DNA of 64,000 nt from Planctomycetota bacterium. Lineage in GTDB: Bacteria > Planctomycetota > Phycisphaerae > FEN-1346. Made by a program: the position numbers and the translations under genes. The notes beneath the pieces are model-generated. The model was not told where the DNA came from. It did not search any database and was given only the letters and a program-made list of their open reading frames with translations. This document shows, piece by piece, positions 3,501 to 27,288 of the stretch. Numbering within the stretch: position 1 is the first letter of the stretch; each line of letters begins with the position of its first letter. The stretch covers positions 1 to 64,000 of the forward strand of contig JAUVZF010000008.1 of assembly GCA_030602705.1 (NCBI GenBank), in the 5' to 3' direction.

Positions 3501-3637
3501 AAAAAGGTTCCAGGAACCTTTTCTGCGTAGCACCCTCCGGGCCCTTCAGGGAAAAGGTTCCTGGAACCTTTTCCCGAAAAAGACCGATACACGGCCAGAA
3601 ACGCCGAAACCGCGAAAAAGGTTCCTGGAACCTTTTT
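3501..3637. repeat. Cluster of three GGTTCC palindromes
   Basis: Three copies (3501-3523, 3551-3573, 3615-3637) of a palindrome GGTTCC-A/T-GGAACC flanked by A-run and T-run. The last two bracket a spacer resembling those at 11176-11264, 12255-12342 and 13046-13131. The 525-bp gap between the PilZ and mnmA genes holds little else. Confidence 0.9.
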
Positions 3638-3782
3638 GCCCTTACGCTCGTGATGCCAGCCGTATTCGCGCCTATGCCCGCCGGCACGGATGCCCGCGTG
3701 CCCCCGACGGGCCGTCCCAAGCGAAAGCATGGCGCCCGGCTAAGACTGGTGGGACGAGGCCGCTGCGGCCGCGTCACTGCCC

Positions 3783-3811
3783 TTCCGTGCAGCGGCGCGA
3801 GCCGGTACAAT
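3783..3811 (+). promoter_or_regulatory. Candidate promoter giving a leaderless mnmA mRNA
   Basis: TTCCGT (3783-3788), 17 bases, TACAAT (3806-3811). The -10 box ends only six bases before the mnmA ATG, so transcription would begin at or next to the start codon. The -35 match is weak. Confidence 0.3.
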
Positions 3812-3817
3812 ACCGCC

Positions 3818-4906: not shown

Positions 4907-4992
4907 GGGCGCCATGGCGATGGGAGGGGGCGGCGCGTGAGGGCGTGACCGGGAGCTTCCGCTCCCGGCTCGAACGACAAGACGGCCAAAAC

Positions 4993-5021
4993 GCACGGCC
5001 GGGCAAGACCGGCCGTGGCAC
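4993..5021. repeat. GCACGGCC...GGCCGTGGCAC palindromic repeat
   Basis: A palindrome with CCGG arms, also found inside the GT9 gene (5342-5394), inside the radical SAM gene (31891-31919) and in part at 42283-42304. A separate perfect hairpin (CCGGGAGC / GCTCCCGG, 4949-4968) lies just before it. Together they fill the mnmA-GT9 gap. Confidence 0.8.
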
Positions 5022-5040
5022 ATCTCGTTAGCGAACAGGC

Positions 5041-6153
5041 ATGAAGCACATCGTCATCATCCACGCGGGGGCCGTCGGCGACCTGGTGCAGGCGCTGCCG
5101 GCGATGGCGGCCGTGCGGGCGGCGTGGCCGGAGGCGACGGTCACGCTGGTCGGCCGGCCCGAGCGTGCGGCGCTCGCGGTCCTGGCGGGGGCGGCCGAAA
5201 GGATCGTGGACCTGGAGACGTGCGGCCTGTGGCGGCTGATGGGTGAGGCCGCAGACGCCACTGCCCTGCACGTCCTGGACGGTGCGGACCTGGTGGTCGA
5301 TCTGCTGACGAAGGGAGCGCTGGCGGCAGGGTTCAAGAAAAGCACGGCCGGGCAAGCCTGCCCTGAGCCCGCCGAACGGGGCCGGCCGTGGCACACCTAC
5401 ACCTGTCACCCCGAGCGAAGCCGAGGGGTCTCGCCTTTCGACACCGCCAGAAGCACAGACAACGGCGAGATTCCTCCACTCGTCCCGACTGCGCCGGGAC
5501 TCGGTCGGAATGACAGGCTGGTGGTCTCGGTCGATCCTTTGCCGCCGGAGGGATGGCACCGGAGCGCGGCGGCGTGGATCACGGGCCAGGTGTGTGAGGC
5601 CCTGAGTCTGGATGCACCATGCGAGACGCCGTGTATCCGCCTTCCACAAACGGCCGAAGACGCGGCGCGCACGCTGCTGGCGTCGCGCGGCGTGGGGGAG
5701 CGTTTCGTCGCCGTCCATCCCGGAAGCGGCTCGACGACGAAGAACTGGCCGCTGGATCGCTTCGAGGCAGTTGCGCGCCGTGTGCGGCAAGAGACGTCGC
5801 GCGGCGTGGTGTGGCTCATCGGCCCGGCCGAACAGGAACGTGGGACGCTGCCGCACGGGGCGAGCGGCGACACGGTCATGGCAAACCTGGCGCTCGTGGA
5901 CGTCGCGGGCCTCCTGGCACTGGCCGACGCGTATCTCGGAAACGATTCGGGTATCACGCAAATTGCGGCGGCCGTGCGGCGGCGCGACGGCCGTACCACG
6001 CCGACGGTGGCGCTGTTCGGTCCGACGGACCCGCGTGTGTGGGCTCCGTGCGGCGAGCACGTGCGGGTCGTCGCGGCGGCGGCGGACGGGAAGATGGAGA
6101 GTATCGGCGTCGAAGAAGTCGGCGAGGCGGTGGCGGCGATGCTGATACGATAA
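5041..6153 (+). CDS. GT9-family (heptosyltransferase-like) glycosyltransferase with repeat insertion
   Basis: A 370-residue GT-B enzyme of the ADP-heptose:LPS heptosyltransferase family, probably acting on cell-envelope glycans. The N terminus MKHIVIIHAGAVGDLVQALP and the donor-site region (AVHPGSGSTTKNWP, LADAYLGNDSGITQIAA, ALFGPTDP) are diagnostic. Residues ~98-160 do not look like the family: their DNA (5342-5517) is a GCACGGCC palindrome followed by a TGTCA-type repeat like that at 21403-21510. The frame stays open through both. Whether the enzyme tolerates the ~60-residue insert is unknown. Confidence 0.85.
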   Translation: MKHIVIIHAGAVGDLVQALPAMAAVRAAWPEATVTLVGRPERAALAVLAGAAERIVDLETCGLWRLMGEAADATALHVLDGADLVVDLLTKGALAAGFKKSTAGQACPEPAERGRPWHTYTCHPERSRGVSPFDTARSTDNGEIPPLVPTAPGLGRNDRLVVSVDPLPPEGWHRSAAAWITGQVCEALSLDAPCETPCIRLPQTAEDAARTLLASRGVGERFVAVHPGSGSTTKNWPLDRFEAVARRVRQETSRGVVWLIGPAEQERGTLPHGASGDTVMANLALVDVAGLLALADAYLGNDSGITQIAAAVRRRDGRTTPTVALFGPTDPRVWAPCGEHVRVVAAAADGKMESIGVEEVGEAVAAMLIR

Positions 6154-6171
6154 CCAGACGACGACAACAAC

Positions 6172-6193
6172 ACCCCCGATTACCATCGGGGGT
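6172..6193. terminator. Hairpin between convergent genes
   Basis: ACCCCCGAT / ATCGGGGGT with a 4-base loop sits between the GT9 stop and the convergent lipoprotein stop. There is no long T-run, so intrinsic termination is only a possibility. Confidence 0.4.
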
Positions 6194-6209
6194 TAGTCAT
6201 GCTGCTTCT

Positions 6210-8222
6210 TCATGGACCACTGCGTCCGCCCGGCGGCTCACCCCGGGGCACGGCGGGCGGCTGCCACGTTTGCGGTTGGGTCCCCTCGCGCGCCGGGGCG
6301 CCCATAATGCCAGGCGGCGACATCAGCCCCCCGGCCATGGCCGCATGGAACCCATAGAACATCACACGGGCAAGGCCGTGCCGGATAACCGGGATGGTCC
6401 GCGTCAGTTCGGAGGCCGGCACGTCGAAATCGAGACGGACGGTTCGGTCATCGACCCGGACGGCCACGAGCATCGGCTCGCCGATGGCCGGAACGTCGAG
6501 GCGCGGCAGGAGCGCCTCCTCGTAGCCCCGCTTCGCATAGGGCGGAAGCATCATGGGAAACACGCGCTCGAGCATCGTATCGACGAGGTATCCATAGGCG
6601 GGGAGCGAGACGAGCACAACGGCGCCGCTGCCGCTTGGGACGCGTGCCAGGGCGGCGCGAACCGCCTCCTGGTTCGCCAGGTCCGCATCCCCGGCTTGGA
6701 GGTTCTTGATGGCCCGAGCCATGACGTCGGCGCCACCCATGGTCACGACGGCCCGGTCTCCGCAGACGGCGACGCGCATAACCAGCCCCTCCGGACCATA
6801 GATCCCGTCGATCATGCCCTTGAAGCCGGCACGGACCTGGGGCGGCGCGTCCGCGGGCGGCGTCATGTCGAACTTGAAGCGGATCACGTCCACGGAGAGG
6901 CCCTCGATGGTCTCGGCGGCCTCGTGGTACTCGACCCCCATGTCCATCTTGGGTGCGTCGGGCGTCTTGGGAATCATCCCGAGCATGGCCTTGTAGAACC
7001 CGTCGATGGTCTCCATGCTCTTTTTCATCAAGGCGCGATAGGCCGCGCCGTCCTTCAGGGCAACGATCTGGGTCATGCGGTAAACACCCTGATCGGCCTC
7101 GGGAATCTCCATGAGGACGGCAGTCTGGTCGCCGAGCACGTTGCCCTGCTCGTCGATCATGGCCCACATCTGTTTGACGGCTTTGTCCAGCGGCTGCATG
7201 ACGGCGGGCGGCTGGGCGGCGTCCTGGCCGGCCGCCTGCTTTGCCATGGCCTTTTCCATCATCTCGAACACGGCGTCCATGACGGGCTCGAGGAAGGCCT
7301 TGAGCCGGGTTCCCGCCTCGGCCTGGTCGATGCGGCTCCAGGAGGCCAGGAGGAACCGATCGGTGGGCGGCAGCGCCGCCTCATAGGTTTCGATGGGCTT
7401 CAGGGTCTTGGCAATCGCCAGGAGCGATGCGTCCTGCCGCAGCGTCAGGCCGACGCGCAGCGCCCCGTGGCCGCCGTCCGCATCCAGAGCGATTTCGAGA
7501 TCCTCGATCTGCTGGACCAGGTCTTCGAGCCACTCGAACAACTTGACCTGTTTCGACGGGGTCTCGGCGGTGTGCCTTTTCTGTAACCGCTCCTTCGCCC
7601 TCCGGATCTCGGGCAGGACCCTGTCGGCCAGCGGCTTGGCGTTGACGCGCACCCAGGCGAGGTTGGCGGCGATCCGGTCGGCCATCTGTTCGTCGGGGGC
7701 AAAGCGCGGCCCGGCCGCCTGGAACGCCTTCAGGGCCGCCGGCCCGCCGGAGAAGGCGACCCAGTTGTCCATCCGCATCGCAAAGATCGTGGGTGCGCTC
7801 CCCACGGCGGGCTTGATTTTGAGAATGCCGCCCTCAACCGTCTCGCCCTTCAGCCGCTCGCGATCTTTCAGATGCATCAGGAAGACGACGCCGGGGCCGT
7901 CCGGGCCTATCAGGACCGTCCATCCGACCGGTTGTTCCGGGTCGCCGACCCCGGGGGGCAGGAGGCTGAACGGAACGGCAACCAAGGTGGCGAGTTCGGG
8001 ACCCGCAAAGGCGTTCAGATTGTCCACGAGCGCCCGCGGGCTCCGGAACGTGCCGACCAGGACGGCATCGGCCGGCGCCTGCGCTACCATTTCAAGGAGC
8101 GCCTTGCGAAGCGCCGGCGAGACGGCAGGGGCGGGCGGCGGCGGGGCGGGTTCCGATTCGCAACCTGCCACCAGCAGGGCCACGCCCAATACGGCGAACA
8201 GTCCCATTCGTGCCATCTTCAT
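6210..8222 (-). CDS. Large predicted lipoprotein, function unknown
   Basis: A 670-residue protein starting MKMARMGLFAVLGVALLVAGC, a type II signal peptide with lipobox VAGC. The rest is soluble, rich in Ala/Pro and charged helices, without a motif I recognise. It may be envelope-anchored. I chose ATG 8222 because a G-rich site precedes it and the signal peptide begins there; the frame is open to 8282. It lies downstream of the sigma/anti-sigma/YbjQ set on the same strand after a ~180-bp gap. Confidence 0.75.
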   Translation of the reverse strand: MKMARMGLFAVLGVALLVAGCESEPAPPPPAPAVSPALRKALLEMVAQAPADAVLVGTFRSPRALVDNLNAFAGPELATLVAVPFSLLPPGVGDPEQPVGWTVLIGPDGPGVVFLMHLKDRERLKGETVEGGILKIKPAVGSAPTIFAMRMDNWVAFSGGPAALKAFQAAGPRFAPDEQMADRIAANLAWVRVNAKPLADRVLPEIRRAKERLQKRHTAETPSKQVKLFEWLEDLVQQIEDLEIALDADGGHGALRVGLTLRQDASLLAIAKTLKPIETYEAALPPTDRFLLASWSRIDQAEAGTRLKAFLEPVMDAVFEMMEKAMAKQAAGQDAAQPPAVMQPLDKAVKQMWAMIDEQGNVLGDQTAVLMEIPEADQGVYRMTQIVALKDGAAYRALMKKSMETIDGFYKAMLGMIPKTPDAPKMDMGVEYHEAAETIEGLSVDVIRFKFDMTPPADAPPQVRAGFKGMIDGIYGPEGLVMRVAVCGDRAVVTMGGADVMARAIKNLQAGDADLANQEAVRAALARVPSGSGAVVLVSLPAYGYLVDTMLERVFPMMLPPYAKRGYEEALLPRLDVPAIGEPMLVAVRVDDRTVRLDFDVPASELTRTIPVIRHGLARVMFYGFHAAMAGGLMSPPGIMGAPAREGTQPQTWQPPAVPRGEPPGGRSGP

Positions 8223-8404
8223 GACGACCCCCATTCTAGCGTCTGCGCGGGTGCATAGTTCCAGGCATCCTGTCGCGCCCAAGCGGCGCGAACCGACAAG
8301 ACGCCCGTGTGACCATTATCCCACCACCGGCAAGCCGGAACAAGGGCGACGTTCGCTTGGGCGCGGCGGGTCGGGAGACCCACCGCGCCAAAGTCGGCGA
8401 TTCG

Positions 8405-8719
8405 TTATCCGATGACGACGGCCGTGCCGTAGGCCAGCAGTTCGGCCGCGCCGCCCATGATCACCGACGTCGTGAACCGCATGCTGACGATCGCGTTGGC
8501 GCCCAAGCCCTCGGCCGCGGCTACCATGCGGTCGATGGCCTGTTCGCGCGATTCGGCCATCAGTTTGGTGTATTCGACGACCTCGCCGCCTATCAGGTTC
8601 CGATACGCCGCCTTGATGTCGTGGCCGATGTGGCGGGCCCGAATCGTGTTGCCGCGCACCAGGCCCAGCGTCTCCTTGATCGTCTTGCCGGGCACCGTGG
8701 GTGTGGTGACGAGGATCAT
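8405..8719 (-). CDS. YbjQ/UPF0145-family protein
   Basis: 104 residues beginning MILVTTPTVPGKTIKE, with RNLIGGEVVEYTKL, ANAIVSMRF and a closing AYGTAVVI, the conserved pattern of the heavy-metal-binding-like UPF0145 family (biochemical role unsettled). ATG 8719 has GGGAGG just upstream and overlaps the stop of the anti-sigma gene by 4 bases, so the two are translationally coupled. Confidence 0.88.
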   Translation of the reverse strand: MILVTTPTVPGKTIKETLGLVRGNTIRARHIGHDIKAAYRNLIGGEVVEYTKLMAESREQAIDRMVAAAEGLGANAIVSMRFTTSVIMGGAAELLAYGTAVVIG

Positions 8720-9165
8720 CGTTCGACCTCCCTGGAGTACCGGTCCACCTTGCGGACGACGAGCCGCTCCCTGAGGAGCGAGACGAACAGGACGACCAGG
8801 CCGGCGATGAGGGCACAGACGCCGACCTTCAGGATGACCGAGATGGCCGGGTCGCGGATCATCTCTTCGACGATCTTGAACGCACCGTAGCAGAGCGTGA
8901 GGATGGCGCCGGCCGAGAGCAGTATCCACCCGATGCCGCGCTCCAGGCGGTTGTACACTCCGGCCCAGTACCGCTGGAGTTCTTCATCGCCGGGTTCTTT
9001 GAACCGCATCATGTTCAGGTCCTCCGTCAGGCGTTTCAGTTCGGCCAGTTCCGTTCGGCAGGCGTCGCACGAGGCGAGGTGCTCCTCGAAACGTCGCCGC
9101 TCCTCCTCCGGCAGTTCGCCGTCGAGATAGGCGCCGGCCATCCGATTGAACTCGTTACAACTCAT
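8716..9165 (-). CDS. Membrane anti-sigma factor with zinc finger
   Basis: 149 residues. The N-terminal zf-HC2-type anti-sigma zinc finger has C3, H29, C33 and C36 (HLASCDAC). Two hydrophobic segments follow (about 77-100 and 108-132). It probably holds the ECF sigma factor encoded immediately upstream (4-bp overlap) at the membrane. The releasing signal is unknown. Confidence 0.88.
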   Translation of the reverse strand: MSCNEFNRMAGAYLDGELPEEERRRFEEHLASCDACRTELAELKRLTEDLNMMRFKEPGDEELQRYWAGVYNRLERGIGWILLSAGAILTLCYGAFKIVEEMIRDPAISVILKVGVCALIAGLVVLFVSLLRERLVVRKVDRYSREVER

Positions 9166-9707
9166 GAAGATTCTCCTGCCAACGTCTCGCGCAGGGCCCG
9201 GCGCGCGCTGTGCAGCCGCGACATAACCGTGCCGATGGGTATACCGAGCGCGGCGGCGATACCCTTGTATGACATCTCATGGAAATGCTTCATAAGGATG
9301 ATCTCGCGGAAGGGGTCCGAGAGTTTCATGACGCCGCGCCACAGGGCGTCGCGACGCTCGTTTCGCTCGGCCAGGAGGACGGGGTCGCTGTCGCTGGAGG
9401 AGTCGCCGTGGCCGTCGGTCAGGGCGACCGTCCGGCGGCGTGCGCGGCGGCGGAGGCGGCTCCTGCACACGTTCCGCAGAATGGCCGAGTACCACGGATA
9501 GAACGGCGAGGAGGTGTTGAACCGCTTGATGTTCCGCCACGCGCGGACGAAGGCTTCCTGGGAAGCGTCGAGCGCCTCGTGGGGGCAACCGAGCAGCAGG
9601 CATGCAGCGCCGGAGGCGCGGCCGGCGTACTTCTTGACGACGAAACCGAAGGCGTCTCTGTCGCCCGCCCGACACCGCTCCAGCAGCGCCGTTTCGTTTT
9701 CGCTCAT
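9162..9707 (-). CDS. ECF-type RNA polymerase sigma factor
   Basis: 181 residues with region 2 (EAFVRAWRNIKRF, about 50-63) and region 4 (MSYKGIAAALGIPIGTVMSRLHSARRAL, C-terminal). First gene of a three-gene overlapping operon with its anti-sigma factor and a YbjQ protein. It directs RNA polymerase to a stress or envelope regulon that cannot be identified here. Confidence 0.92.
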   Translation of the reverse strand: MSENETALLERCRAGDRDAFGFVVKKYAGRASGAACLLLGCPHEALDASQEAFVRAWRNIKRFNTSSPFYPWYSAILRNVCRSRLRRRARRRTVALTDGHGDSSSDSDPVLLAERNERRDALWRGVMKLSDPFREIILMKHFHEMSYKGIAAALGIPIGTVMSRLHSARRALRETLAGESS

Positions 9708-9811
9708 AGGTCTGCCTGCCGCCCGCTCGCCGCCACACTATACCGACTCGGCGCGGCGCTTATTCGGAAAATTCGGGGGGGGCGGGCATTCCGGCGCTGC
9801 CACGCTTTTGC

Positions 9812-9840
9812 TTGACCTCCGTTTCGGGGCAACCTATACT
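9812..9840 (+). promoter_or_regulatory. Promoter for the phosphodiesterase-PEGA genes
   Basis: TTGACC (9812-9817), 17-base spacer, TATACT (9835-9840), 24 bases before the ATG at 9865. A strong sigma70-like match. Confidence 0.65.
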
Positions 9841-9864
9841 GCGGCCGCGAGAGGTGGGGTAACC

Positions 9865-10356
9865 ATGAAGATCGGCGCGATTGCCGACACGCACGATAAC
9901 CTGGCGGCCATCTCGGCTGCGATGAAGTATTTCGAGGAGCAAGGCGTCGAGGCCATCCTCCACGCGGGCGACTACTGCGCCCCCTTCGCCCTGAAACGGC
10001 TGCTCCAGACGCGCATTCCGTTCGAGGGCGTCTACGGCAACTGCGACGGCGAGCGGGAGGGCCTGGCAAAACTGCTGCCGTCGCTGGCAGCCGGCCCCCG
10101 GCACCTTGAACTGGGCGGCAAGAAGATCTGCCTGACACACGACCGCAGCCGCCTCCAGCACGATGCTCTCGAGGCCTCCGACATCCTCCTGTTCGCCCAC
10201 ACGCACGACCCGTTGGTCGAGCGTCAGGAGGGCCGGTTGGTCATCAATCCGGGCGAATGCGGCGGCTGGATGACCGGCCGGTGCACCGTAGCCGTCATCG
10301 ACACCGGCACCCTGGCGGCCGACATCAAAGAAGTCTACCAGCAGGCAAGGTCCTGA
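9865..10356 (+). CDS. YfcE/MJ0936-type metallophosphodiesterase
   Basis: A 163-residue calcineurin-like phosphoesterase. Metal motifs in order: ADTHDN (DxH, residue ~8), HAGDYC, GNCDGE, LTHDR and AHTHDP, the last replacing the usual GHTH. Probably a small cytosolic phosphodiesterase of unknown physiological substrate. ATG 9865 has AGGTGGGG upstream. The frame is open upstream, but that part does not resemble the family. Confidence 0.9.
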   Translation: MKIGAIADTHDNLAAISAAMKYFEEQGVEAILHAGDYCAPFALKRLLQTRIPFEGVYGNCDGEREGLAKLLPSLAAGPRHLELGGKKICLTHDRSRLQHDALEASDILLFAHTHDPLVERQEGRLVINPGECGGWMTGRCTVAVIDTGTLAADIKEVYQQARS

Positions 10357-10362
10357 CCGGCG

Positions 10363-10776
10363 ATGAAACGTGCAATCCTTATGACGGGGCTCCTGGCAAC
10401 CGCGGCGCTGGGCGGCTGTTACGGACAGGTCCAGCGCACCATCACCATCGACTCCGAACCCAGCGGCGCACTGTGCTGGCTCAACGACAATGAAATCGGC
10501 CGCACACCCGTCACGGTACCCTTCACGTGGTACGGCACGTATGCCGTGCGGCTGGAGCATCCGGGGTACGAGGCGCTGGTGACCGAAGCGAAGGTGCGGG
10601 CGCCCGTCAGCCAGTGGATACCGCTCGACCTGGCCTTCGAGACGGTGGTGCCGGGCGTGCACTACGACACGCACGAGTTCCACTTCGCAATGCAAGAAGC
10701 CAAGCCGATCGATCCCGAGGCCCTGCGCCGCCGGGCCGAGAGCCTGCGCCGCGACGCCACAGTGGGCGGGCCGTAG
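10363..10776 (+). CDS. PEGA-domain lipoprotein
   Basis: 137 residues; the signal peptide ends in lipobox ALGGC. A PEGA-like beta domain follows (ITIDSEPSGALCWLNDNEIGRTP, then YAVRLEHPGYEA). Probably a surface or periplasmic lipoprotein. It starts 7 bp after the phosphodiesterase gene and is likely co-transcribed. Confidence 0.85.
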   Translation: MKRAILMTGLLATAALGGCYGQVQRTITIDSEPSGALCWLNDNEIGRTPVTVPFTWYGTYAVRLEHPGYEALVTEAKVRAPVSQWIPLDLAFETVVPGVHYDTHEFHFAMQEAKPIDPEALRRRAESLRRDATVGGP

Positions 10777-10787
10777 GGGAACGACAG

Positions 10788-10824
10788 TTCAAAGTCCAAA
10801 GTTCAAAGTCCAAAGTCCAAAGTC
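10788..10824. repeat. Short tandem TTCAAAGTCCAAAG tract
   Basis: Alternating TTCAAAGTC / CAAAGTC units. A single reverse-complement trace (TTGAACTTTGAA) lies at 11269-11280 right before endonuclease IV, so the tract brackets the broken peptidase gene. Confidence 0.75.
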
Positions 10825-10904
10825 ATGCACGCCTTCGAGCCGGGACCGGAAGGTCCCGGTCGCCTGACACTGCAGGGCGTTCCGAGACCGGCAGGAGTCT
10901 GCCT

Positions 10905-11175
10905 TTGCGCACCACCGCGCTTCTTGTAGCGCTCGCGATGTTCCTGGCCGGATGCGCCGGCCGCCGGCAACGTTCCGCCGCCGCAGCCGCCGGAGGAGTT
11001 CACGCTCGACAGCGGCCTGACGGTCATGCTGCGGCCGATGCAGGGCACCGAGAAGGTCGCCCTGGTGGTCCTGTACGCCGTGGGCGGGCTGCACGATCCG
11101 AAGGGGCAAAGCGGCCTGGCACACCTCGTCGAGCACTGCTACGTGACGGCTGCGGCCGGCGCGACGCCCCAGCGT
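10905..11175 (+). pseudogene. M16-family peptidase lipoprotein, frameshifted 5' remnant
   Basis: TTG 10905 with GCAGGAG upstream opens a lipoprotein signal (ALLVALAMFLAGC). The frame must then shift around 10960-10968 to enter PPPQPPEEFTLDSGLTVML and GLAHLVEHCYVTAAAG, which contains the inverted zinc motif HxxEH of M16 peptidases. The remainder is missing: the sequence runs straight into a GGTTCC repeat at 11176. So both a frameshift and a truncation are visible. Confidence 0.75.
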
Positions 11176-11264
11176 AAAAAAAGGTTCCAGGAACCTTTTT
11201 CCGAAAAAGGCCCATACGCGGCCAGAAACGCCGAACTGCGAAAAAGGTTCCTGGAACCTTTTTT
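11176..11264. repeat. GGTTCC palindrome pair (REP-like unit)
   Basis: Two palindromes (11176-11200, 11241-11264) flank a ~40-bp spacer. The spacer reads as the reverse complement of those at 12255-12342 and 13046-13131. It ends the M16 remnant and precedes endonuclease IV. Confidence 0.9.
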
Positions 11265-11290
11265 ACGATTGAACTTTGAACTGTGTGACC

Positions 11291-12256
11291 ATGCCTCGCT
11301 TCGGCGCGCATCTCTCGATACAAGGCGGCGTGGACAAGGCGGTGGAGCGTGCGCTCGCTATCCGGGCCGAGTGCCTCCAGATCTTCCTGAAATCGCCGGC
11401 GCAGTGGCGGTTCGGGCCGCTCTCCGATGAGACGGTCGGCCGGTTCCGCGCCGCGGCGCGCGAGGCAGACCTCACGCCGCTCGTCGGCCACGCGTCGTAC
11501 CTCGTGAACCTGGCGAGCCCCGACCGGGCGCTGTATGAACGGTCGCGCCGGTGTATCCTCGAAGAATGGGACCGGTCCGAGCGGCTCGGACTCGACGGCC
11601 TCGTCCTGCATCCCGGAGCCCACACGGGCAGCGGCGAGGCGGCCGGCCTCGCGCGCATCGCGCGGGCCCTCGACTGGCTCCATCGTCGGCGGCCGGACCA
11701 CGCCTGCCGCATCCTGCTCGAAACCACCGCCGGCGCCGGAACAACCCTGTGCGGGCGGTTCGAGCATCTACAGTATCTCGTCGAAACCTGCGACTCTGAG
11801 TGTGCCACGGCCGGGCGGCATGGGCACGCGCCGCGGCGTGGCCATGTTCCGCCTGCGAGAGACGCGCGCAGCGGACAGGACTGTCCACCGCGCGGCGGCG
11901 CGAGAGAACGCCTGGGCATCTGCATCGACACGTGTCACCTGTGGGCCGCCGGATATGACGTGCGGACGCGCGGGGGCTTGGACGAAACGCTCGGGCGGCT
12001 GGATGAGACGGTCGGCCTGGCGCGCGTGGCCGTCGTCCACGCCAACGACGCAAAGGGCGAACGCGGGTCGCACCTCGACCGTCACGAACACATCGGCCGC
12101 GGGCGGATAGGGCGGGAGGGATTCCGGCGACTGGTCAATCATCCGGCGCTTCGCGACCTGCCGTTCATCCTCGAAACGCCCAAAGAAGGCCCCCGCGGCC
12201 GCAAGATGGACCCCGTGAACCTCCGCACCCTCCGTCGCCTTGCCGCCAACGCGTAA
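11291..12256 (+). CDS. nfo: Endonuclease IV (AP endonuclease) with internal insertion
   Basis: A zinc AP endonuclease of base-excision repair, 321 residues. Family motifs are GHASYLVNLA (~66-75), LVLHPGAHTG, ETTAGAG, IDTCHLWAAGYD (~212-223), VVHANDAKGERGSHLDRHEHIG and FILETPKE. Residues ~168-203 are extra, low-complexity and Arg/Pro/Gly-rich, with DNA containing GCCACGGCCGG repeat sequence. No ribosome site precedes ATG 11291 because repeats occupy the 5' side. The stop overlaps the next palindrome. Confidence 0.9.
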   Translation: MPRFGAHLSIQGGVDKAVERALAIRAECLQIFLKSPAQWRFGPLSDETVGRFRAAAREADLTPLVGHASYLVNLASPDRALYERSRRCILEEWDRSERLGLDGLVLHPGAHTGSGEAAGLARIARALDWLHRRRPDHACRILLETTAGAGTTLCGRFEHLQYLVETCDSECATAGRHGHAPRRGHVPPARDARSGQDCPPRGGARERLGICIDTCHLWAAGYDVRTRGGLDETLGRLDETVGLARVAVVHANDAKGERGSHLDRHEHIGRGRIGREGFRRLVNHPALRDLPFILETPKEGPRGRKMDPVNLRTLRRLAANA

Positions 12257-12342
12257 AAAAGGTTCCAGGAACCTTTTTCGCAGTTCGGCGTTTCTGGCCG
12301 CGTATCGGCCTTTTTCAGGAAAAGGTTCCTGGAACCTTTTTT
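12255..12342. repeat. GGTTCC palindrome pair between convergent stops
   Basis: Palindromes at 12255-12278 and about 12320-12342 surround the spacer CAGTTCGGCGTTTCTGGCCG... The left A-run overlaps the endonuclease IV stop, and the right T-run meets the RAYT stop. The form A-run/GC stem/T-run reads as an intrinsic terminator on both strands. Confidence 0.92.
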
Positions 12343-13009
12343 ACAATCGCGGTCGGCCACGGGGACGGAGGGTGTTCTCAAGGCCGAGGCGTGCTGCGGC
12401 GTGCAAGACCCAGTCAGCCGAACCATAGGGCCGTCCGCGTCTTGCGCACAACCTGAGGGCCGCCAGTTCGTCCTGGTTCAAAGGCTGATTGACGAAATCC
12501 AACCAACCATCAGGCCGCGGCACGGGCCATTCACTGAGCAGGGCTGTTGCCTCCACCGTGCCGCGTTCGCGACACCAGAGACTACCCCATCGCCAGTGCT
12601 CTGCTCTGGTCACCAGGCCGGCTCGCAGGGGGTTACGTTCGACGTAGCGACACACCGTCAGGAAATACCGGTCGCTCTGAACCGGGAAAGACTTGAATCT
12701 GCCCTGATACAGATGGCCGCAACCGCGCATCCCTTGAAAGACATGCCAGCGAAGCGAATGCGTTCGCGTAAGCCAAGCGAGGTGCCGCGAAAGGTGCCCG
12801 TCCCCCTCGGGATGAAGCACCATGTGCCAGTGGTTTGGCATCAGGCAATAAGCAAGGACGCGCATCGGAACACGATCCTGGGCTTCCGCTATTACCTTCT
12901 CGAAGGCAGCGTAATCTCCGGGCCGTTTGAAAATCTGCGCACGCCCATTGGCCCGGTTCAGGACATGATACACGACTCCACCGACGGCAATACGCGGGGC
13001 TCTTGGCAT
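12341..13009 (-). CDS. REP-associated tyrosine transposase (RAYT, Y1_Tnp family)
   Basis: 222 residues. HUH-type single-strand nuclease motif H60-W-H62 in MPNHWHMVL, then YFLTVCRYVERNPLRAGLV with candidate catalytic Tyr (Y115 or Y122), and the C-terminal GRPYGSADWV typical of RAYTs. These enzymes process palindromic REP hairpins. The gene sits between two GGTTCC units (12255-12342 and 13046-13131), the arrangement of a REPtron. It appears intact. Confidence 0.93.
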   Translation of the reverse strand: MPRAPRIAVGGVVYHVLNRANGRAQIFKRPGDYAAFEKVIAEAQDRVPMRVLAYCLMPNHWHMVLHPEGDGHLSRHLAWLTRTHSLRWHVFQGMRGCGHLYQGRFKSFPVQSDRYFLTVCRYVERNPLRAGLVTRAEHWRWGSLWCRERGTVEATALLSEWPVPRPDGWLDFVNQPLNQDELAALRLCARRGRPYGSADWVLHAAARLGLENTLRPRGRPRL

Positions 13010-13045
13010 ATCCAGCTAATAGCGTCAGAAACCCACCGCGTCAAG

Positions 13046-13131
13046 AAAAAAGGTTCCAGGAACCTTTTTCGCGATTCGGCGTTTCTGGCCGCGTATCGGC
13101 CTTTTTCAGGAAAAGGTTCCTGGAACCTTTT
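13046..13131. repeat. GGTTCC palindrome pair upstream of RAYT
   Basis: Same organisation and orientation as 12255-12342, with spacer CGATTCGGCGTTTCTGGCCG... It ends two bases before the stop of the gene at 13134-14021. Confidence 0.92.
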
Positions 13132-13133
13132 AT

Positions 13134-14021
13134 TTACGTCCTGCCCTTGTCGGCGGGAGGGTACTTCGAGCCGGGAACGCCCTTGGCGCGGACGGGCTTG
13201 GCGGGAACCGTGAACTCGACCTTGACGGGCTCTTTAAGGTCCTCGGAGATGACAAGCCCGCCGAGGCGCGGCTCAAACTGCCAGCCCCACGTCTGCCACT
13301 CGGCCTTCGAGACGCGGAACCGGTACAGGCACCGCGTCTTGAACGCCGTCCACGCGTCGTACTTCTTCTCATAGGTCCACTGTTCGATTCGCCAGGTGAT
13401 CTCGTCGCCCTTGCGGCTGTGGAACGCCTTGTCCATCATCAGTTCCACCAGCGCGACCGCCATGTCGGTCGAGCCCGAGATAAGCACGTCGGTGATCTTG
13501 TTCTCGTACCGCTTGACCTCGTGGATGATGCGGCGGATGGCCGCCCGGTCCTTCTCGGTGAACTCGCCCTCCGGCCGCAGCCCCATGTCCGGCGTCCGGT
13601 ACTGGGGCGGGATCAGGATGTCGTACGGCGAGACCTTCGGCTCCATGTCGATGCCTTCGAGCCTGCCCCACGGCGTCCGGATGATAAAGTCGTACGTGCC
13701 GAACCGCAGGCCCTTGACCTCGAAGGCGCCCGTGCTCTTATCCACCCGCACGGGGATCTTCAGATCCATCGACCGCTCGATGAGGTGCGCTTCGAGCACC
13801 CGCTCCGGCGGCGTGAAGCGTCCGCGGATGGCCCGGACCTCCGGCGGCTGCTCCTTCTTCCCGGCAGCCGGCGCCGCTTGCTCACCGGCCGCCGATGCCT
13901 CCGATTTCGGTTTCGACGGCGCAAACGGGTTCCCCTGGGCCATGACCGAACCCTGCACCAGCCCGATAACCAAAAGGGCGACACAAGCAGCCACAAGGAC
14001 GCCAAGCGGCAACCGTCTCAT
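13134..14021 (-). CDS. Secreted protein of unknown function
   Basis: 295 residues. An N-terminal hydrophobic signal (LGVLVAACVALLVIGLVQGSVMA) is followed by a Pro/Ala/Lys linker and a mature region with a possible small beta domain (GAFEVKGLRFGTYDFII). No catalytic motif is recognised. ATG 14021 has GGAGGTT 8 bases upstream. A GGTTCC unit lies directly after its stop. Confidence 0.75.
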   Translation of the reverse strand: MRRLPLGVLVAACVALLVIGLVQGSVMAQGNPFAPSKPKSEASAAGEQAAPAAGKKEQPPEVRAIRGRFTPPERVLEAHLIERSMDLKIPVRVDKSTGAFEVKGLRFGTYDFIIRTPWGRLEGIDMEPKVSPYDILIPPQYRTPDMGLRPEGEFTEKDRAAIRRIIHEVKRYENKITDVLISGSTDMAVALVELMMDKAFHSRKGDEITWRIEQWTYEKKYDAWTAFKTRCLYRFRVSKAEWQTWGWQFEPRLGGLVISEDLKEPVKVEFTVPAKPVRAKGVPGSKYPPADKGRT

Positions 14022-14109
14022 CAAGACAACCTCCATTCCCGTCCATCGCCCATTTGACAGTGCCGAGGGACCTCTGGCAAGTCGAAACGCCGCTTGCGGG
14101 GGTATCTCC

Positions 14110-14138
14110 TTGACACCCGACCCATAAACCTTTATCGT
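14110..14138 (+). promoter_or_regulatory. Candidate promoter for the 14182 gene
   Basis: A perfect TTGACA (14110-14115), 17 bases, TATCGT (14133-14138), 44 bases before ATG 14182 in the divergent gap. Confidence 0.45.
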
Positions 14139-14181
14139 GATTCCATTGCCCGGCCGCACGCCGACGTCCGGGGAGATGCAA

Positions 14182-14967
14182 ATGGCCAAACGCAAAGCAC
14201 AACGGGCGTTGTTCGAACTCCTGGCCAAGGAGCGCGGCCAGGCCAAGGCCAAACTGGATGCCGGCAGGGCAACGCGGCCGGTCGGCGGCGGCAAGATGCA
14301 GGCGCCGCCCCAACCGGCGGCCGAGGTGCCTCGACGCGAGGAGCCCATGCCGATCACGCGGCGGCCCAAGCCCACCATCGTGACGCGAAAGGCCGCCATC
14401 ATCGTCGGCGGCGTCAGGCTCACGTGGCCGTACCTGGCGGTCGCAGGCGTCGTCCTGCTTTGCCTCTGCTACCTGTTCTACGCGTTGGGCGCCCGGTCCC
14501 GCGGCGACGGCCTCCCGGTGACCGAGAAGCACCCGACGATGAACGAGATTCAGGCCACCGGGCCGGCGCTGGGTCTCGTGGAGCCCGGCGCCAAGCCGCC
14601 CAAACTCGGCGCGAAGGTCCCGCCGAAACCCGCCCCGCCAAAACCGAAGCCCGGCGCCGAGGGCACGCAGCCGCCCACGCCGCCCGCCCCCGCCGGCCCG
14701 CAGTACCGGGTCCGCATCGCCCGGCTCAACGTCTCGAAGCCCGACGCCGTGGACGACCTGAGAGCGTTTCTCGCCAAGAGCGGCATCCAGACCGACCTGG
14801 TTACGCGCAGCGGCTTCCACATCCTGTACAGCCGCCGGCACTTTACGGACAAGACGGCGTCGGACACGCTGGCGCTCCAGATCAACAAGAGTTTAGGGGC
14901 GTTCGAGAAGGAGACCCGCCGGCCGACGTCGAAAGACGCCTATACAGTTCAGATGAAGAAGGAGTAA
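14182..14967 (+). CDS. Single-pass membrane protein with SPOR-like C-terminal domain
   Basis: 261 residues: basic cytoplasmic N terminus (~1-80), one transmembrane helix (~81-102), Pro/Lys-rich linker (~130-185), then a ~70-residue domain (YRVRIARLN...LVTRSGFHILYSRRHF) whose pattern recalls SPOR-type repeats. The similarity is weak. ATG 14182 has GGGGAG 6 bases upstream. It is 4 bp from the small basic protein gene. Confidence 0.7.
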   Translation: MAKRKAQRALFELLAKERGQAKAKLDAGRATRPVGGGKMQAPPQPAAEVPRREEPMPITRRPKPTIVTRKAAIIVGGVRLTWPYLAVAGVVLLCLCYLFYALGARSRGDGLPVTEKHPTMNEIQATGPALGLVEPGAKPPKLGAKVPPKPAPPKPKPGAEGTQPPTPPAPAGPQYRVRIARLNVSKPDAVDDLRAFLAKSGIQTDLVTRSGFHILYSRRHFTDKTASDTLALQINKSLGAFEKETRRPTSKDAYTVQMKKE

Positions 14968-14971
14968 GCGG

Positions 14972-15280
14972 ATGTCGTTGGACAAGAGTCTGAAATCCGG
15001 CGGCGCCTTGACCAGGCATCGCAACGTGCTGTCGCGGGCCGAGCGCGTCGAGCAGTTGGCCGACGAGGAGAAGTGGCAGGACGGTGACAGCGTGTTCGGC
15101 CTTCCGAAAGTGGTCCATCGCAAGGTCCAGGCCCGGAAGGCGAAACCGGCTGCGGCGACGGCTGAGACCGAGGCGCTCGCCGAAGGCGCCGAAGCGCCCG
15201 CCGAAGGCGCCGAGGCTGCCCCTGCGGCCCAAGCCGCCACCGCCGAAGACACGCCGCAGACCAAACAATCGAAACCATAG
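14972..15280 (+). CDS. Small basic protein, TIGR04137 type
   Basis: 102 residues. The first ~55 (MSLDKSLKSGGALTRHRNVL, then LSRAERVEQL and DSVFGLPKVVHRKV) match the small basic protein family known from Chlamydiae, Verrucomicrobia and Planctomycetes; role unknown, possibly ribosome-linked. The Ala/Glu-rich tail is extra. It is a useful lineage marker. Confidence 0.85.
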   Translation: MSLDKSLKSGGALTRHRNVLSRAERVEQLADEEKWQDGDSVFGLPKVVHRKVQARKAKPAAATAETEALAEGAEAPAEGAEAAPAAQAATAEDTPQTKQSKP

Positions 15281-15324
15281 GCCCGATCCCAAGCGGTCCG
15301 ACACGAGTTCTGTGCGGTCCGTAC

Positions 15325-15345
15325 CCGGTACGGGTCCGTATGGAC
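15325..15345. repeat. CCGTACGGGTCCGTATGG-type palindrome
   Basis: CCGGTACGGGTCCGTATGG. Related copies are at 17961-17983, 20299-20336 (inside a ketosynthase gene) and 41052-41082. It lies in the 190-bp gap before the aminotransferase. Confidence 0.7.
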
Positions 15346-15470
15346 GGATCGCGCATCAAGGGCATGTCCGCGGCGGGTTCGGACTTCGGACGGGGCGTGT
15401 CTTTGACCCATCCCGCCGCTCGTGCGACCCCCGTGCAGGCTGGCTCAGACGCCGATGAAAGGAGCGAGGC

Positions 15471-16586
<1,116 letters not shown>

Positions 16587-16596
16587 GGCGGAGCAA

Positions 16597-16620
16597 GAAA
16601 AGGTTCCAGGAACCTTTTTT
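16597..16620 (+). terminator. Single GGTTCC palindrome, likely terminator
   Basis: A lone copy of the palindrome with A-run and T-run arms directly after the aminotransferase stop. Shape fits an intrinsic terminator. Confidence 0.6.
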
Positions 16621-22732: not shown

Positions 22733-24265
22733 ATGTTCCATCTTCGTGAGCATCGCACGACCGTCGGGTCGGAGGTGCGCGGCGGTCTCGTGACGTTCCT
22801 GACGCTTTCGTATATTATCTTCGTTCAGCCGGCGGTTCTCGCGGCGACGGGCATGCCGCCGGCCGACGTCTTCTTTGCCACTTGCGTGTGCTCGGCGCTG
22901 GCGTGTTTCCTGATGGGGCTGCTGGCGAACTACCCGTTTGCGCTGGCGCCGGCGATGGGCCACAACTTTTTCTTTGCCTATACCGTGTGCCTGGGGATGG
23001 GGTTCGCGTGGCAGGAGGCGTTGCTGGCCAACCTGATCGCCGGGGGGGTGTTTCTGGCCCTGAGTTTCCTCGGCCTGCGTGAGGCGGTGATGCACGCGGT
23101 GCCGGAGGGGCTGAAGTATGCGATTGCCGTGGGCATCGGTCTGCTGATCGCGTTTTCGGGCCTTCAGTGGGGCGGTCTCGTCCAGAACAGCGATGCGACG
23201 CTGGTGCAGTTGGGCCCGCTGACCAGCCCGGTGGTACTGGTGTCGCTGGCGGGGGTGGCGTTGACGGCGGTACTGCTGGCGCTGCGGCTGCGGGCGGCGA
23301 TTCTGGTCGGGATTGTGTGCACGGCGATTCTCGCCCTCGTCGTCACCGGTGATGGGCTTCGCTATCAGCCGGCGAACGGTCTGGAAGTTATCCCGGCCGC
23401 TCGCGTCGGCGAGCGGGCCGATGCGCTCGTCCTGGGCCGGGCCGACCCGGTTGAGCCGGTTCCGCTGGAGAAGGTGAAGATGACCCTTGCCAAGTGGCCG
23501 GGGACGTGGCACCTGCCGAAGTGGCCCGGCGAAACCTTCGGCGCCGCCGTGACCAGCGGATGGGACCTCTTCCGCAACCGGGATTGGACCAGCATTCTGC
23601 TCGTGATCTTTATCTTCTTCTTTCTCGACATGTTTGACACCGTCGGAACGCTTATCGGCGTGGGTGAACGGGCGGGCTTTCTGGACGCACAGGGGCGCCT
23701 GCCGCGGGCCCGGTGGGCGCTGTTCTCCGACGCCGCCGGCACCGTCGCGGGGTCGCTCGTCGGGACGAGCACCGTGACGACGTACATCGAAAGCGCAGCG
23801 GGCGTCGAGTCCGGCGCCAGAACGGGCTTGGCGGCTATCGTGACGGGAATCTGCCTGCTGCTGGCCCTGTTCCTCTCGCCGCTCGTTCACGTGGTGGGAG
23901 CGGGGGTGGAGTTCGTCCGCGCCGAGACGGCCGAGCCGCTCGTCCAGGTGGCCGCCGGGACGGTTACGGTGGTTCCTCTGCGGCCGGTCATCGCGCCGGT
24001 GCTCGTCCTCATCGGCGTAATGATGGTGGGCAGCGTGGCCAAGATCAGGTGGAGTGACTACAGCGAGGCGATTCCGGCGTTCCTGGCGATTATCGTCATG
24101 CAGTTCAGTTTCTCGATTACCGACGGTATCGCGTGGGGATTCATATCGTACGCCCTTTTGAAGACCGTGACGGGGCGCGCTAGGGAACTGCACTGGCTGG
24201 TCGCGCTGTTTGCCGTGCTGTTTATCGGACAGTACGTGGCCCGGGCGGTGCTCATCGGATCCTGA
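22733..24265 (+). CDS. AzgA/PbuG-type purine permease (NCS2 family)
   Basis: 510-residue multi-pass transporter. The N terminus FHLREHRTTVGSEVRGGLVT and the segments PALAPAMGHNFFF-like (FALAPAMGHNFFFAYTVCLG), FLDMFDTVGTLIGVGERAG and ESAAGVESGARTGLAA are diagnostic of adenine/guanine/hypoxanthine permeases. ATG 22733 is preferred over 22679 for homology and the GGAGG upstream. Its last ~24 codons are duplicated 2.3 kb downstream. Confidence 0.92.
   Translation: MFHLREHRTTVGSEVRGGLVTFLTLSYIIFVQPAVLAATGMPPADVFFATCVCSALACFLMGLLANYPFALAPAMGHNFFFAYTVCLGMGFAWQEALLANLIAGGVFLALSFLGLREAVMHAVPEGLKYAIAVGIGLLIAFSGLQWGGLVQNSDATLVQLGPLTSPVVLVSLAGVALTAVLLALRLRAAILVGIVCTAILALVVTGDGLRYQPANGLEVIPAARVGERADALVLGRADPVEPVPLEKVKMTLAKWPGTWHLPKWPGETFGAAVTSGWDLFRNRDWTSILLVIFIFFFLDMFDTVGTLIGVGERAGFLDAQGRLPRARWALFSDAAGTVAGSLVGTSTVTTYIESAAGVESGARTGLAAIVTGICLLLALFLSPLVHVVGAGVEFVRAETAEPLVQVAAGTVTVVPLRPVIAPVLVLIGVMMVGSVAKIRWSDYSEAIPAFLAIIVMQFSFSITDGIAWGFISYALLKTVTGRARELHWLVALFAVLFIGQYVARAVLIGS
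24186..24258 (+). repeat. Direct repeat, copy 1 (permease 3' end)
   Basis: 73 bp identical to 26507-26579. Less exact similarity continues ~15 bp to the left. It encodes the C-terminal LHWLVALFAVLFIGQYVARA of the permease. Confidence 0.95.
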
Positions 24266-24617
24266 TCCTACAACGCTGCGTGAACCTGTGCGCGGTGGGT
24301 CGGAGCCTGCCCTGAGCCTGTCGAACGGGGACTCACCGCGCTGCTGTTAAAGCGCCGTTCTCGGCGCGGCGGGTCCGCCGGCCCACGGCGGCGCGCTCCG
24401 GACGCCCCGTCCGAATGCGCCCCTACAGTGGGCGCGGGAGGCGATTTTGCCTGGCCGAAAACTGAAATCGTTACACCGATAGACCCTGCAACTGTCTCTG
24501 GCTACCCAAGGCCGGTTCAAGGCCGGCGATTCGATATTAGAATGAATAAACCGCGCCCTCAGAAGGCAGGCGCGGCCTGCCGGGGCAACCCACAAAGGTC
24601 CGCGGCCGAAAAACCGT

Positions 24618-24645
24618 TTGACTTTCGCGATTCTTGTGGTATATT
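24618..24645 (+). promoter_or_regulatory. Candidate promoter inside the 2.3-kb insert
   Basis: TTGACT (24618-24623), 16 bases, TATATT (24640-24645). It reads toward the caspase-like gene 400 bp downstream. The stretch 24266-24765 has no gene I can support; it includes GCCTGCCCTGAGCCTGTCGA-type repeat sequence at ~24307, also seen in the GT9 insertion. Confidence 0.4.
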
Positions 24646-24765
24646 GCCACTGAGTAAGGGAACGAGCGCACCCGGTGTCAGATCGGGTTTCTCTTTCGCC
24701 ATGGCTAACGCGTCGTGGAGGACCAGGACTACCTGGCGCGGGAAGTGCACCGCGCTGCGGGTCAT

Positions 24766-24966
24766 CTTCCTGTCGCGTGAGAAGGGCGTGGCTTGGCGTT
24801 TGCCGCGGCGGAGTTCGGCTTCCAGCGCCTTGATGCGTTGCTTGGCGGCGTCGAGTTCGCTCTTCGCGATGGCGAGTTCGCTCTTCGCGGTGGTGAGGTC
24901 GCGTCGGAGCGTTCGGATCTCGCCGAGGAGTCTTCTGCAGTTGCGACATTCGGTGTGGCTACCCAT
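24766..24966 (-). pseudogene. IS66-type transposase N-terminal remnant
   Basis: Reads MGSHTECRNCRRLLGEI, a Leu/Ala/Glu coiled coil (KSELAIAKSELDAAKQRIKA) and GKRQATPFSRDRK, the zinc-ribbon, coiled-coil and basic segment that open IS66-family transposases. The frame then runs into unrelated sequence. Only ~67 residues of an expected ~450-550 remain, with no catalytic part. Confidence 0.65.
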
Positions 24967-25041
24967 ATACAGGGTGTCGCTGCAAGCCCACGGCGCTCCA
25001 GACAAAATGGAAAAAAGACGGGGGGAAAACGGGAGGGGCCA

Positions 25042-26496
25042 ATGAGAAAGCAGTGTATTCACCCAGGGTTGGTCGCAATAATACTACTAGATGCGATTGT
25101 AATGTCCTTAATAACGCTTCTGCCGGCTGTTCAGCTCCGCGGCGAAGAACTTGAGGTTTGGGCAAGCTCATTACATGGTAGCGTGTATGAACTATGGGGC
25201 GGTCTCGGGCCCTGCCCGACAATGCAGAGGCCCTGGGGCCCAGTACCAGGATACTATAGGGCGCCCGAATACGGGTACGTTCAGCTGGACACGGCTACTG
25301 GGCACAAGGTTTTTGACATCACGGAATCCTATCCGTACTACGTCATCGGGACGCGGCGCGAGATGGCACTCGATGCTGTGCGTCTACCCAACGGGGAGTA
25401 CCTAACGGGAGAGTCGCACGACCCATTAGCCGAGTGGGGCAATTCCCACCTCCCATTCGTTTTCGATGACGACGGACAGCTCGTGGGGAACCCGTTGGAC
25501 TATGCCAGCGATACGTACCTGTGGGGTCCGCCAGATGGGATGACGAACAACCTTGGGCATCCCCCCTGCATGGGGACGACAAATGAGATATTTGAGGGCT
25601 TCCTCACCTTCGAATGCCGCCCCAACCTGTATGGATTGTTCGTCGGGTCGGACGACCCGTCCATCGGCATGAAGGGACAAACGGACGCCAAGAAGTCGTA
25701 TCAGAAGTTTGCCGCGTTTGACATGTGGCAGGGTGGCGCGCGCCTTGATTTCATGTTCAACGCGTCGACGCCAACAGCAAAAAAAGACATTTTCAACAAA
25801 TTAAAGACCGGAGAGCAGGACTTGCTTGCCGGTGACGTCGTTGTGTTCTTTTATTCTGGCCACGGTGTAGGCTGCCTGGGGCCTGAGAAGATGGCTTATA
25901 CGTCAAACAGCAACGAGTGGCTAACGGACGATTCGCTAGCGGCATGGTTTGAGGGAACGGCCGGCGTTGACGGGCAACGACTTGATCCCCAGATTTGGAA
26001 TGCCGTCAATAAACTCTTTGTTTTTGACTGTTGCAGCGCCGATGGTTTCTGGGGACCGGGAGATGACGGCGATGACATCGCACGGTTGCCCAAAGCCGCC
26101 TTGCTGGCCGCCTGCTGCGAATGTTGTGGCACGGGTTTTGACGCAAACGGAGAGGGGTTCCTAGCGAAAGCGGTGCAGGCGGGCACCACCTTAGTCCCCT
26201 ATGGGGATGGCAAGTTCGCCGCAGCTGATCTGGACCATGACGGGCTTTCTTTCCCTGAGTTGGAAGCGTTCGTGCAACAGTACGGACAACAGTTTTATTC
26301 CCATCTCGAGGGGCTCGAAATGTACCTTAAGGATGCTGAAACCGCTCCATTCCATTGGGATTGCGTGGGCCAGGCATCTGGCGACTTTAACCTCGGAGTG
26401 ATGGGCGAGCCGATGACCATGCCGGAGCCCGCCACGCTCGCGCTGCTGGCCCTTGGTGGCCTGAGCCTGTTCGCGCGCCGGAAGAAAGGGGCCTGA
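25042..26496 (+). CDS. Secreted caspase-like (C14) protein with PEP-CTERM anchor
   Basis: 484 residues. A hydrophobic signal (LVAIILLDAIVMSLITLLPA) precedes ~170 residues of unknown type, then a caspase-hemoglobinase fold: NLYGLFVGSDD, VVVFFYSGHGVG with H274, and LFVFDCCSADGF with catalytic candidate C331. The tail MPEPATLALLALGGLSLFARRK is a PEP-CTERM sorting signal. ATG 25042 follows GGGAGGGG. Base use is visibly richer in A+T than in neighbouring genes. The whole gene lies between the two direct repeats. Substrate and activity are unknown. Confidence 0.82.
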   Translation: MRKQCIHPGLVAIILLDAIVMSLITLLPAVQLRGEELEVWASSLHGSVYELWGGLGPCPTMQRPWGPVPGYYRAPEYGYVQLDTATGHKVFDITESYPYYVIGTRREMALDAVRLPNGEYLTGESHDPLAEWGNSHLPFVFDDDGQLVGNPLDYASDTYLWGPPDGMTNNLGHPPCMGTTNEIFEGFLTFECRPNLYGLFVGSDDPSIGMKGQTDAKKSYQKFAAFDMWQGGARLDFMFNASTPTAKKDIFNKLKTGEQDLLAGDVVVFFYSGHGVGCLGPEKMAYTSNSNEWLTDDSLAAWFEGTAGVDGQRLDPQIWNAVNKLFVFDCCSADGFWGPGDDGDDIARLPKAALLAACCECCGTGFDANGEGFLAKAVQAGTTLVPYGDGKFAAADLDHDGLSFPELEAFVQQYGQQFYSHLEGLEMYLKDAETAPFHWDCVGQASGDFNLGVMGEPMTMPEPATLALLALGGLSLFARRKKGA

Positions 26497-26506
26497 CGCG
26501 CGAGGC

Positions 26507-26579
26507 AACTGCACTGGCTGGTCGCGCTGTTTGCCGTGCTGTTTATCGGACAGTACGTGGCCCGGGCGGTGCTCATCGG
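26507..26579 (+). repeat. Direct repeat, copy 2 (orphan permease 3' end)
   Basis: Exact copy of 24186-24258, 2,321 bp away, beginning 11 bases after the caspase-like gene stop. The frame LHWLVALFAV...VLIGR followed by TAG would be a natural permease ending, but no permease body precedes it. Confidence 0.95.
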
Positions 26580-26673
26580 GCGGTAGGGCCGGGCGGCCGT
26601 TCCGCCGCAGGCGCGACGTGGTGCGCGCAGCGGCCAGACACGTCGCCGCACTCCAGGCGGCGAGCCCCACCGA

Positions 26674-27288
26674 TCATTTCAACCGGCCGGCGATCTCGTC
26701 GGCGAACTTGTCGACCTTTGCCTTGACCTCGTCGGCGCCGTCGCTTACCAGAACGATCGTGCTGGGCCCCGGCGTGCCGTTACAGGCCTTGACAATGCCC
26801 GCCACGGCCTCGACGGATTTCGCGCACTTCGGTTCGGACTTGCCCATGATGAGGGCGGCAAAAGGTTTCTTTGCGAGCCGCTCGCCCCCCGCGACGAAGA
26901 TCTCGAAAAACCGCTCGTCGAACATCTTGTGCATCTTCCAACTGACATCGCCGAAATAGGACGGGCTGGCGAGCACGACCAGGCGCGCGCTGAGAATCTC
27001 GTCGCGGCTCTTGACCTCGCCGGCCGCTACGGCTCCGGCGCTGAGGCCTTTGCCGCGAAGGGCCGCGGCCGTCTGCTCGGCCAGGGTCTTACAGTTGACG
27101 GCCGCCGGGGTCGGGCACGAGACGGCATCCACGTTTGCCGGCGTGACCTTCTCGGTCACGGGGGTGCCGCCGGCGTGGATAATGAGGACGTCGGGCGGCT
27201 TCTCCTGAGCCGGCGCCAGGGGCGAACGCGTCGCACAGCCGGCAATCAGTGCCGCCACAAGCAATCCGGGAATCATCGGTCGTTTCAT
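26674..27288 (-). CDS. Flavodoxin-fold lipoprotein
   Basis: 204 residues. Type II signal peptide with lipobox LIAGC. The body resembles the FMN-binding flavodoxin/NADPH-FMN reductase fold (VLIIHAGGTPVTEK, LVVLASPSYFGDVSWKMHKMF, KPFAALIMG). An exported flavodoxin-like protein is unusual; FMN binding is inferred. AAAGGA precedes ATG 27288. It lies 36 bp downstream of dapB. Confidence 0.75.
   Translation of the reverse strand: MKRPMIPGLLVAALIAGCATRSPLAPAQEKPPDVLIIHAGGTPVTEKVTPANVDAVSCPTPAAVNCKTLAEQTAAALRGKGLSAGAVAAGEVKSRDEILSARLVVLASPSYFGDVSWKMHKMFDERFFEIFVAGGERLAKKPFAALIMGKSEPKCAKSVEAVAGIVKACNGTPGPSTIVLVSDGADEVKAKVDKFADEIAGRLK

Follow-up and report, generated by a model that had tools for sequence, protein, structure and literature searches.

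In a 64,000-nucleotide window of a Planctomycetota bacterium genome (contig JAUVZF010000008.1 of assembly GCA_030602705.1, positions 1 to 64,000), an intact purine permease gene is followed by a segment of about 2.3 kb with a caspase-like gene, and the far side of this segment is closed by a second, orphan copy of the permease 3' end. This layout, an insertion with long target duplication, is strongly supported, and the window holds one of several such insertions in the same genome (G000, a metagenome-assembled genome of 162 contigs) and its family. The best explanation, to which a probability of roughly one half is given, would be single-crossover (Campbell-type, RecA) integration of cargo DNA that carried the end of its target gene.

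The two copies of the permease end contain an exact direct repeat of 73 bp at a spacing of 2321 bp (Table 1), at the positions given by the original prediction, and a chance origin of this repeat is excluded. To the left, the repeat extends by 10 bp with two mismatches (from 24176 and 26497), giving 83 bp at 97.6% identity, and the right copy begins immediately behind the caspase TGA stop (26494-26496). On the other side, homology continues, though diverged, through both stops, for a total of about 90 bp. The repeat had been described as literally the last 73 bp of the permease, which needs correction, as the exact part stops 7 nt short of the end of each stop codon. The left copy, in which the stretch GGATCCTGA is found, ends GGA TCC TGA (LIGS-stop), and the right copy ends GGG CGG TAG, so that the separate TAG stop after LIGR reported earlier can be read directly. 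The encoded peptides run RARELHW...LIGS in the gene-attached copy and RARQLHW...LIGR in the orphan; thus, the 73-bp centre is identical and both ends differ. No further copies of the 73-bp repeat occur elsewhere in the G000 genome. The orphan was also considered as a small membrane-peptide gene, but this was dropped because its head has no ATG, GTG or TTG and an in-frame TGA lies directly upstream. With an assembly in 162 contigs, a wrong join of short metagenomic reads at the 73-bp repeat could be suspected. However, both ends differ between the copies, a false join would presuppose that the insert also existed separately in circular or tandem form, and the same architecture is found in the independently assembled genome G003, making misassembly the least probable of the explanations.

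The permease locus in relatives indicates which copy is the older one. GTDB genomes were searched for a congeneric empty site, and the comparison set consists of other genera only. Four genomes of the same family but of other genera (G001, G002, G003 and G005) each encode one full-length permease, 66-71% identical to that of the window, with no orphan tail or repeat, and thus provide the empty site that had been sought, at genus distance. In a further genome, G004, the order is arsR, ferredoxin, permease tail alone, flavodoxin and dapB, the remnant comprising the last 27-30 codons between a hairpin 3' of the ferredoxin gene and the flavodoxin gene (L163 / L032, G004:C592); no other permease was found in G004. 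This tail starts within about 3 bp of the breakpoint of the orphan in the window, an agreement estimated here to arise by chance in about 0.5% of cases for a random point in a 1.5-kb gene. Among 13 genomes searched, only G000 and G004 have the flavodoxin gene beside the tail, aside from weak partial matches in G011. Because the tail-only copy in G004 shares both breakpoint and flavodoxin neighbour, the orphan is best read as the original permease end and the left copy as the new one. In addition, 14 of the 23 changes between the G004 and window tails fall at third codon positions, so that until recently the G004 tail was either constrained as coding sequence or subject to conversion by a coding copy.

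The same layout recurs at other genes, in G000 and in a relative, with inserts that are mostly toxin-antitoxin pairs. Direct and inverted repeats of 50-800 bp lying up to 8 kb apart were surveyed in 1.50 Mb of G000, with genes called by codon usage and an orphan defined as a copy outside called genes. Including the window, five pairs consist of an intact gene's 3' end and an orphan copy (Table 1), and in 5/5 the orphan is direct and downstream with one or more other genes in between; no inverted pairs of this kind were found in the survey. A mirror case on contig C6 duplicates a gene's 5' end, and a tail and orphan pair on C79 was left out of the count owing to its lower identity and position inside a paralog array. 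In a control survey of 0.75 Mb of assorted contigs, there were no downstream-orphan cases where 2.5 would be expected at the G000 rate, a contrast that is suggestive only; two pairs with the orphan upstream were found, both in L143. As a separate observation, a 212-bp direct repeat on C84 (L276:3432-3643 and 8007-8218, 95% identity) covers two consecutive genes at their 5' ends and upstream sequences, and could represent either a further end duplication or a promoter region common to both.

The duplicated sequences are unrelated between loci. Because a different end is duplicated at each, the end belongs to the target rather than to a common element, which argues against a single integrase with one att site. 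Some integrative elements use gene 3' ends as att sites. As in such elements, the insert restores the gene end and leaves the original end at the far side, so that the layout resembles attL and attR with a breakpoint common to G000 and G004, as if an integrase had since been lost. In contrast to those elements, no recombinase is present among the open reading frames (ORFs) of the insert, no att sequence is common to the loci, and the permease tail is absent from plasmid and viral collections; a site-specific origin is accordingly doubtful in the extreme. The earlier proposal, a long target duplication produced by insertion at the 3' end of the permease, was right in outline, given the empty sites, the tail and flavodoxin in G004 and the repeated layout elsewhere, whereas one mobile element that brings its own target site is not supported. 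The orphan could also be the relic of a tandem permease duplication, in which a second full copy on the right lost all but its tail as the caspase segment entered, and its frame, open to its own stop with normal codons, would fit this. Yet two permeases occur in none of the relatives, a tail-only remnant of this kind is seen at five unrelated genes with cargo between in every case, and it would take a coincidence for a deletion in G004 to end at the same codon. Such a relic is improbable.

A second comparison across genera is provided by the gap between fabH and fabD, which measures 23-87 bp in three relatives (G001, G002, G005); in G004 it is wider, about 220 bp, and shows no evident tail. 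The G000 order runs fabH, a HicB-like gene, a DUF4926 gene, the orphan fabH tail, 20 bp and fabD, with TAG at the gene-attached end and TGA at the orphan. Retention of the short operon spacing to fabD marks the orphan as the old end, and hence the gene-attached end as new. G003 contains in the same gap (L285:2455-3950) a DUF4926 homolog that is 78% identical, accompanied by an orphan fabH tail whose breakpoint is almost the same, as well as a second, neighbouring insertion composed of a DUF433-DUF5615 pair flanked by an orphan copy of the 5' end of fabD. The fabH tails are closer within genomes (0.94 in G000, 0.83 in G003) than between them (0.68-0.84). Such a pattern would be expected from a single shared insertion followed by gene conversion; alternatively, related cargo was inserted at this spot independently in the two genomes.

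By single-crossover integration, a circular or circularised molecule of permease tail plus cargo would have recombined within the tail of the resident permease, producing the order permease, tail, cargo, tail, with the joint of cargo and tail as the circularisation joint. As a permease 3' end would have come with the insert, the left-hand gene would have stayed intact, while the original end would have been orphaned beside the flavodoxin gene. Selection accounts for the involvement of gene ends, since insertion elsewhere would break the target gene. The same process with other targets and cargo could have generated the other loci in G000 and G003. Subsequent gene conversion between the tails would keep their centres identical while the ends drift, and a crossover joining the two tails would remove the cargo and bring back the empty site. 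The orphan keeps the old neighbour at two loci, flavodoxin at the permease and fabD at fabH.

The strongest rival is a strict target duplication, in which a break-repair or replicative event inserts linear cargo and copies 60-200 bp of the target, the copies diverging later. This too would duplicate target-derived sequence that differs at each locus, with a variable length as in Helicobacter pylori. However, copies that were exact at birth should diverge evenly, whereas the observed differences cluster at the ends, and the stop contexts of the two copies are unlike at three loci (GS-stop/GR-stop, TAG/TGA and QPRKKGK-stop/DPAAGKKKRK-stop), which favours two diverged homologous ends over copies identical at birth. 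While both mechanisms are possible, strict target duplication is on balance unlikely. Homology-facilitated illegitimate recombination with a linear donor, by homologous exchange in the permease on the left and an illegitimate joint in the recipient's permease end on the right, would give the same product with diverged tails and is known in competent bacteria (PMC3240628). The products reported mostly delete rather than duplicate recipient DNA, and no donor is known, making this origin very improbable. Several points also weigh against single-crossover integration. Neither a circular form nor a donor allele nor an empty allele from the same species was observed; a strict target duplication would yield this layout equally; and the 0.75 Mb of control sequence is too small to prove enrichment in G000. 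Furthermore, uniform divergence between donor and recipient ends alone would not leave an identical centre of 73 bp, so the model must also invoke heteroduplex repair or subsequent gene conversion.

Insertion with long target duplication has been proposed for restriction-modification genes of H. pylori (Nobusato et al., 2000, Gene 259:99-108, as described in PMC1643837 and PMC3031569). As far as those accounts describe them, the H. pylori cases share with the present loci one or two cargo genes, long direct target duplications of variable length, the lack of a transposase and a preserved target gene. Unlike those cases, the cargo here includes a caspase, toxin-antitoxin genes and a transporter, although restriction-modification genes are a typical association and do not define the class. 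In addition, a gene end is duplicated here, complete with a stop context of its own that is often different, and the evidence comes from genus-level relatives rather than from strain comparison. In Escherichia coli, circularised incoming DNA was integrated by a single crossover with duplications of 109-950 bp (PMC3240628). There, too, the insert lies between direct duplications of the homologous segment, but as a product of laboratory conjugation, whereas the loci described here are natural and the duplications measure 57-194 bp.

The entry of single genes and toxin-antitoxin pairs into chromosomes without visible mobile elements is generally unclear. Several insertions, each at a different core gene and with an end duplication that preserves the gene, including one whose site recurs in two genera with related cargo, offer a signature that can be scanned for and a model that can be tested. 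One tentative and rather doubtful generalisation is that small cargo genes (toxin-antitoxin pairs, the caspase, the transporter) might move in this planctomycete family as integrase-free cassettes capped by a copy of a housekeeping-gene end. The cap would have two roles, supplying homology that travels with the cassette for its insertion and excision, and patching the target gene so that it stays intact, and conversion between caps would keep the cassette recombination-competent over genus-level time.

The predicted identity of the cargo as a PEP-CTERM caspase gene stands in part. The PEP-CTERM signal (PF07589) is above the cut-off, and a His-Cys dyad in an SGHG ... DxCxS context is present in the right order, as in bacterial C14 caspase-like proteins. 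However, the match to Pfam C14 (PF00656; E=0.002, 18.3 bits) is below the cut-off of 21.4 bits. Among 392 genomes of the phylum, the protein has no close relative and two weak ones, both with caspase-type motifs, one of which (in G332) shares a segment similar to the EF-hand-like loop. No relative was found in the PDB by sequence, and AlphaFold2, run without relatives, gave an uninformative predicted local distance difference test (pLDDT) score of 34. The PEP-CTERM anchor and the hydrophobic N-terminus imply export, which sets the product apart from other bacterial C14 proteins. With two exosortase genes in G000, it is, from its sequence, a putative exported, exosortase-anchored caspase-like protease.

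Table 1. Features of the insertion in the window and other gene-end duplications in G000 (for the latter, duplicated gene / genes between the copies).
Feature	Position	Strand	Basis or repeat
Purine (xanthine/uracil family) permease gene, intact, 510 aa; insertion target	22733..24265	+	Pfam Xan_ur_permease 8.9e-32
Left (gene-attached) permease 3'-end copy, codons 482-510 and stop TGA; core 24186-24258	24176..24265	+	repeat analysis
Non-coding left part of insert, 776 bp, no supported gene	24266..25041	+	
REP-like dispersed element; other copies on C13, C40 and C159 of G000	24289..24375	.	repeat search of genome
Dispersed sequence, also 5' of secreted-protein genes (C100, C135, C38); covers the predicted IS66/promoter-like segment	24887..25016	.	
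Caspase-like PEP-CTERM protein gene, 484 aa; cargo	25042..26496	+	Pfam PEP-CTERM 3.8e-5, above cut-off; C14 below; PADLOC caspase 5e-4
SGHG motif, presumed catalytic His274	25855..25866	+	
DCCS motif, presumed catalytic Cys331	26026..26037	+	
EF-hand-like loop DLDHDGLSFPEL	26227..26262	+	similar segment in C14 protein of G332
PEP-CTERM sorting signal	26419..26493	+	
Right (orphan) permease 3'-end copy, stop TAG; core 26507-26579; read as original gene end	26497..26586	+	repeat analysis; G004 tail-only copy
Flavodoxin-like gene, original right neighbour	26674..27288	-	
NtrC-type regulator / MOT1 molybdate transporter	C66		194 bp, 97%
fabH / HicB-like + DUF4926	C99		68 bp, 97%
Sulfatase / MNT nucleotidyltransferase + HepT	C55		126 bp, 94%
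LamG-domain protein / small gene without family assignment	C75		57 bp, 93%
Mirror case, 5' end of gene duplicated	C6		96 bp, 98%

The left part of the insert had been thought to hold an IS66 remnant. The ORF at 24559-25062 on the minus strand has no transposase match in Pfam or NCBIfam, no IS66 DDE domain was detected in the whole G000 genome, and its N-terminal peptide occurs once more in G000 (26 aa) and in 0/10 relatives. This assignment was therefore abandoned, and insertion driven by IS66 was rejected for want of transposase support. As to acquisition from outside, both dispersed repeats in this part belong to G000 itself, so nothing marks the insert as foreign except the lower guanine-plus-cytosine content of the caspase gene (0.566 against 0.66). 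A plasmid or viral source was discarded, as neither the caspase nor the permease tail has matches in plasmid and viral collections. Since Rfam gave no match around the insert and the sole tRNA of the window lies 22 kb away, integration linked to an RNA gene was rejected.

Further repeats were observed in G000. A promoter-plus-leader element, TTGAC...TAGAATA...GGCGTCRCGTGACGCCGGGGACGCTAAACACGTA, is dispersed on C135, C38, C64, C44, C100, C109 and C81 (L168-L174), mostly 5' of genes for secreted proteins (sialidase-, esterase- and rhamnosidase-like), and its upstream part alone stands before the caspase gene. It has no match in Rfam and is possibly a regulon or an RNA motif. Within the window, ten copies of a palindrome family, AAAAAGGTTCC[AT]GGAACCTTTTT, are found at 3494-16619, partly as inverted pairs of about 90 bp, and the family also occurs on C50. 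A tandem duplication of about 2.05 kb, 84-91% identical, occupies 52419-58394, with one 140-bp part present in a third copy.

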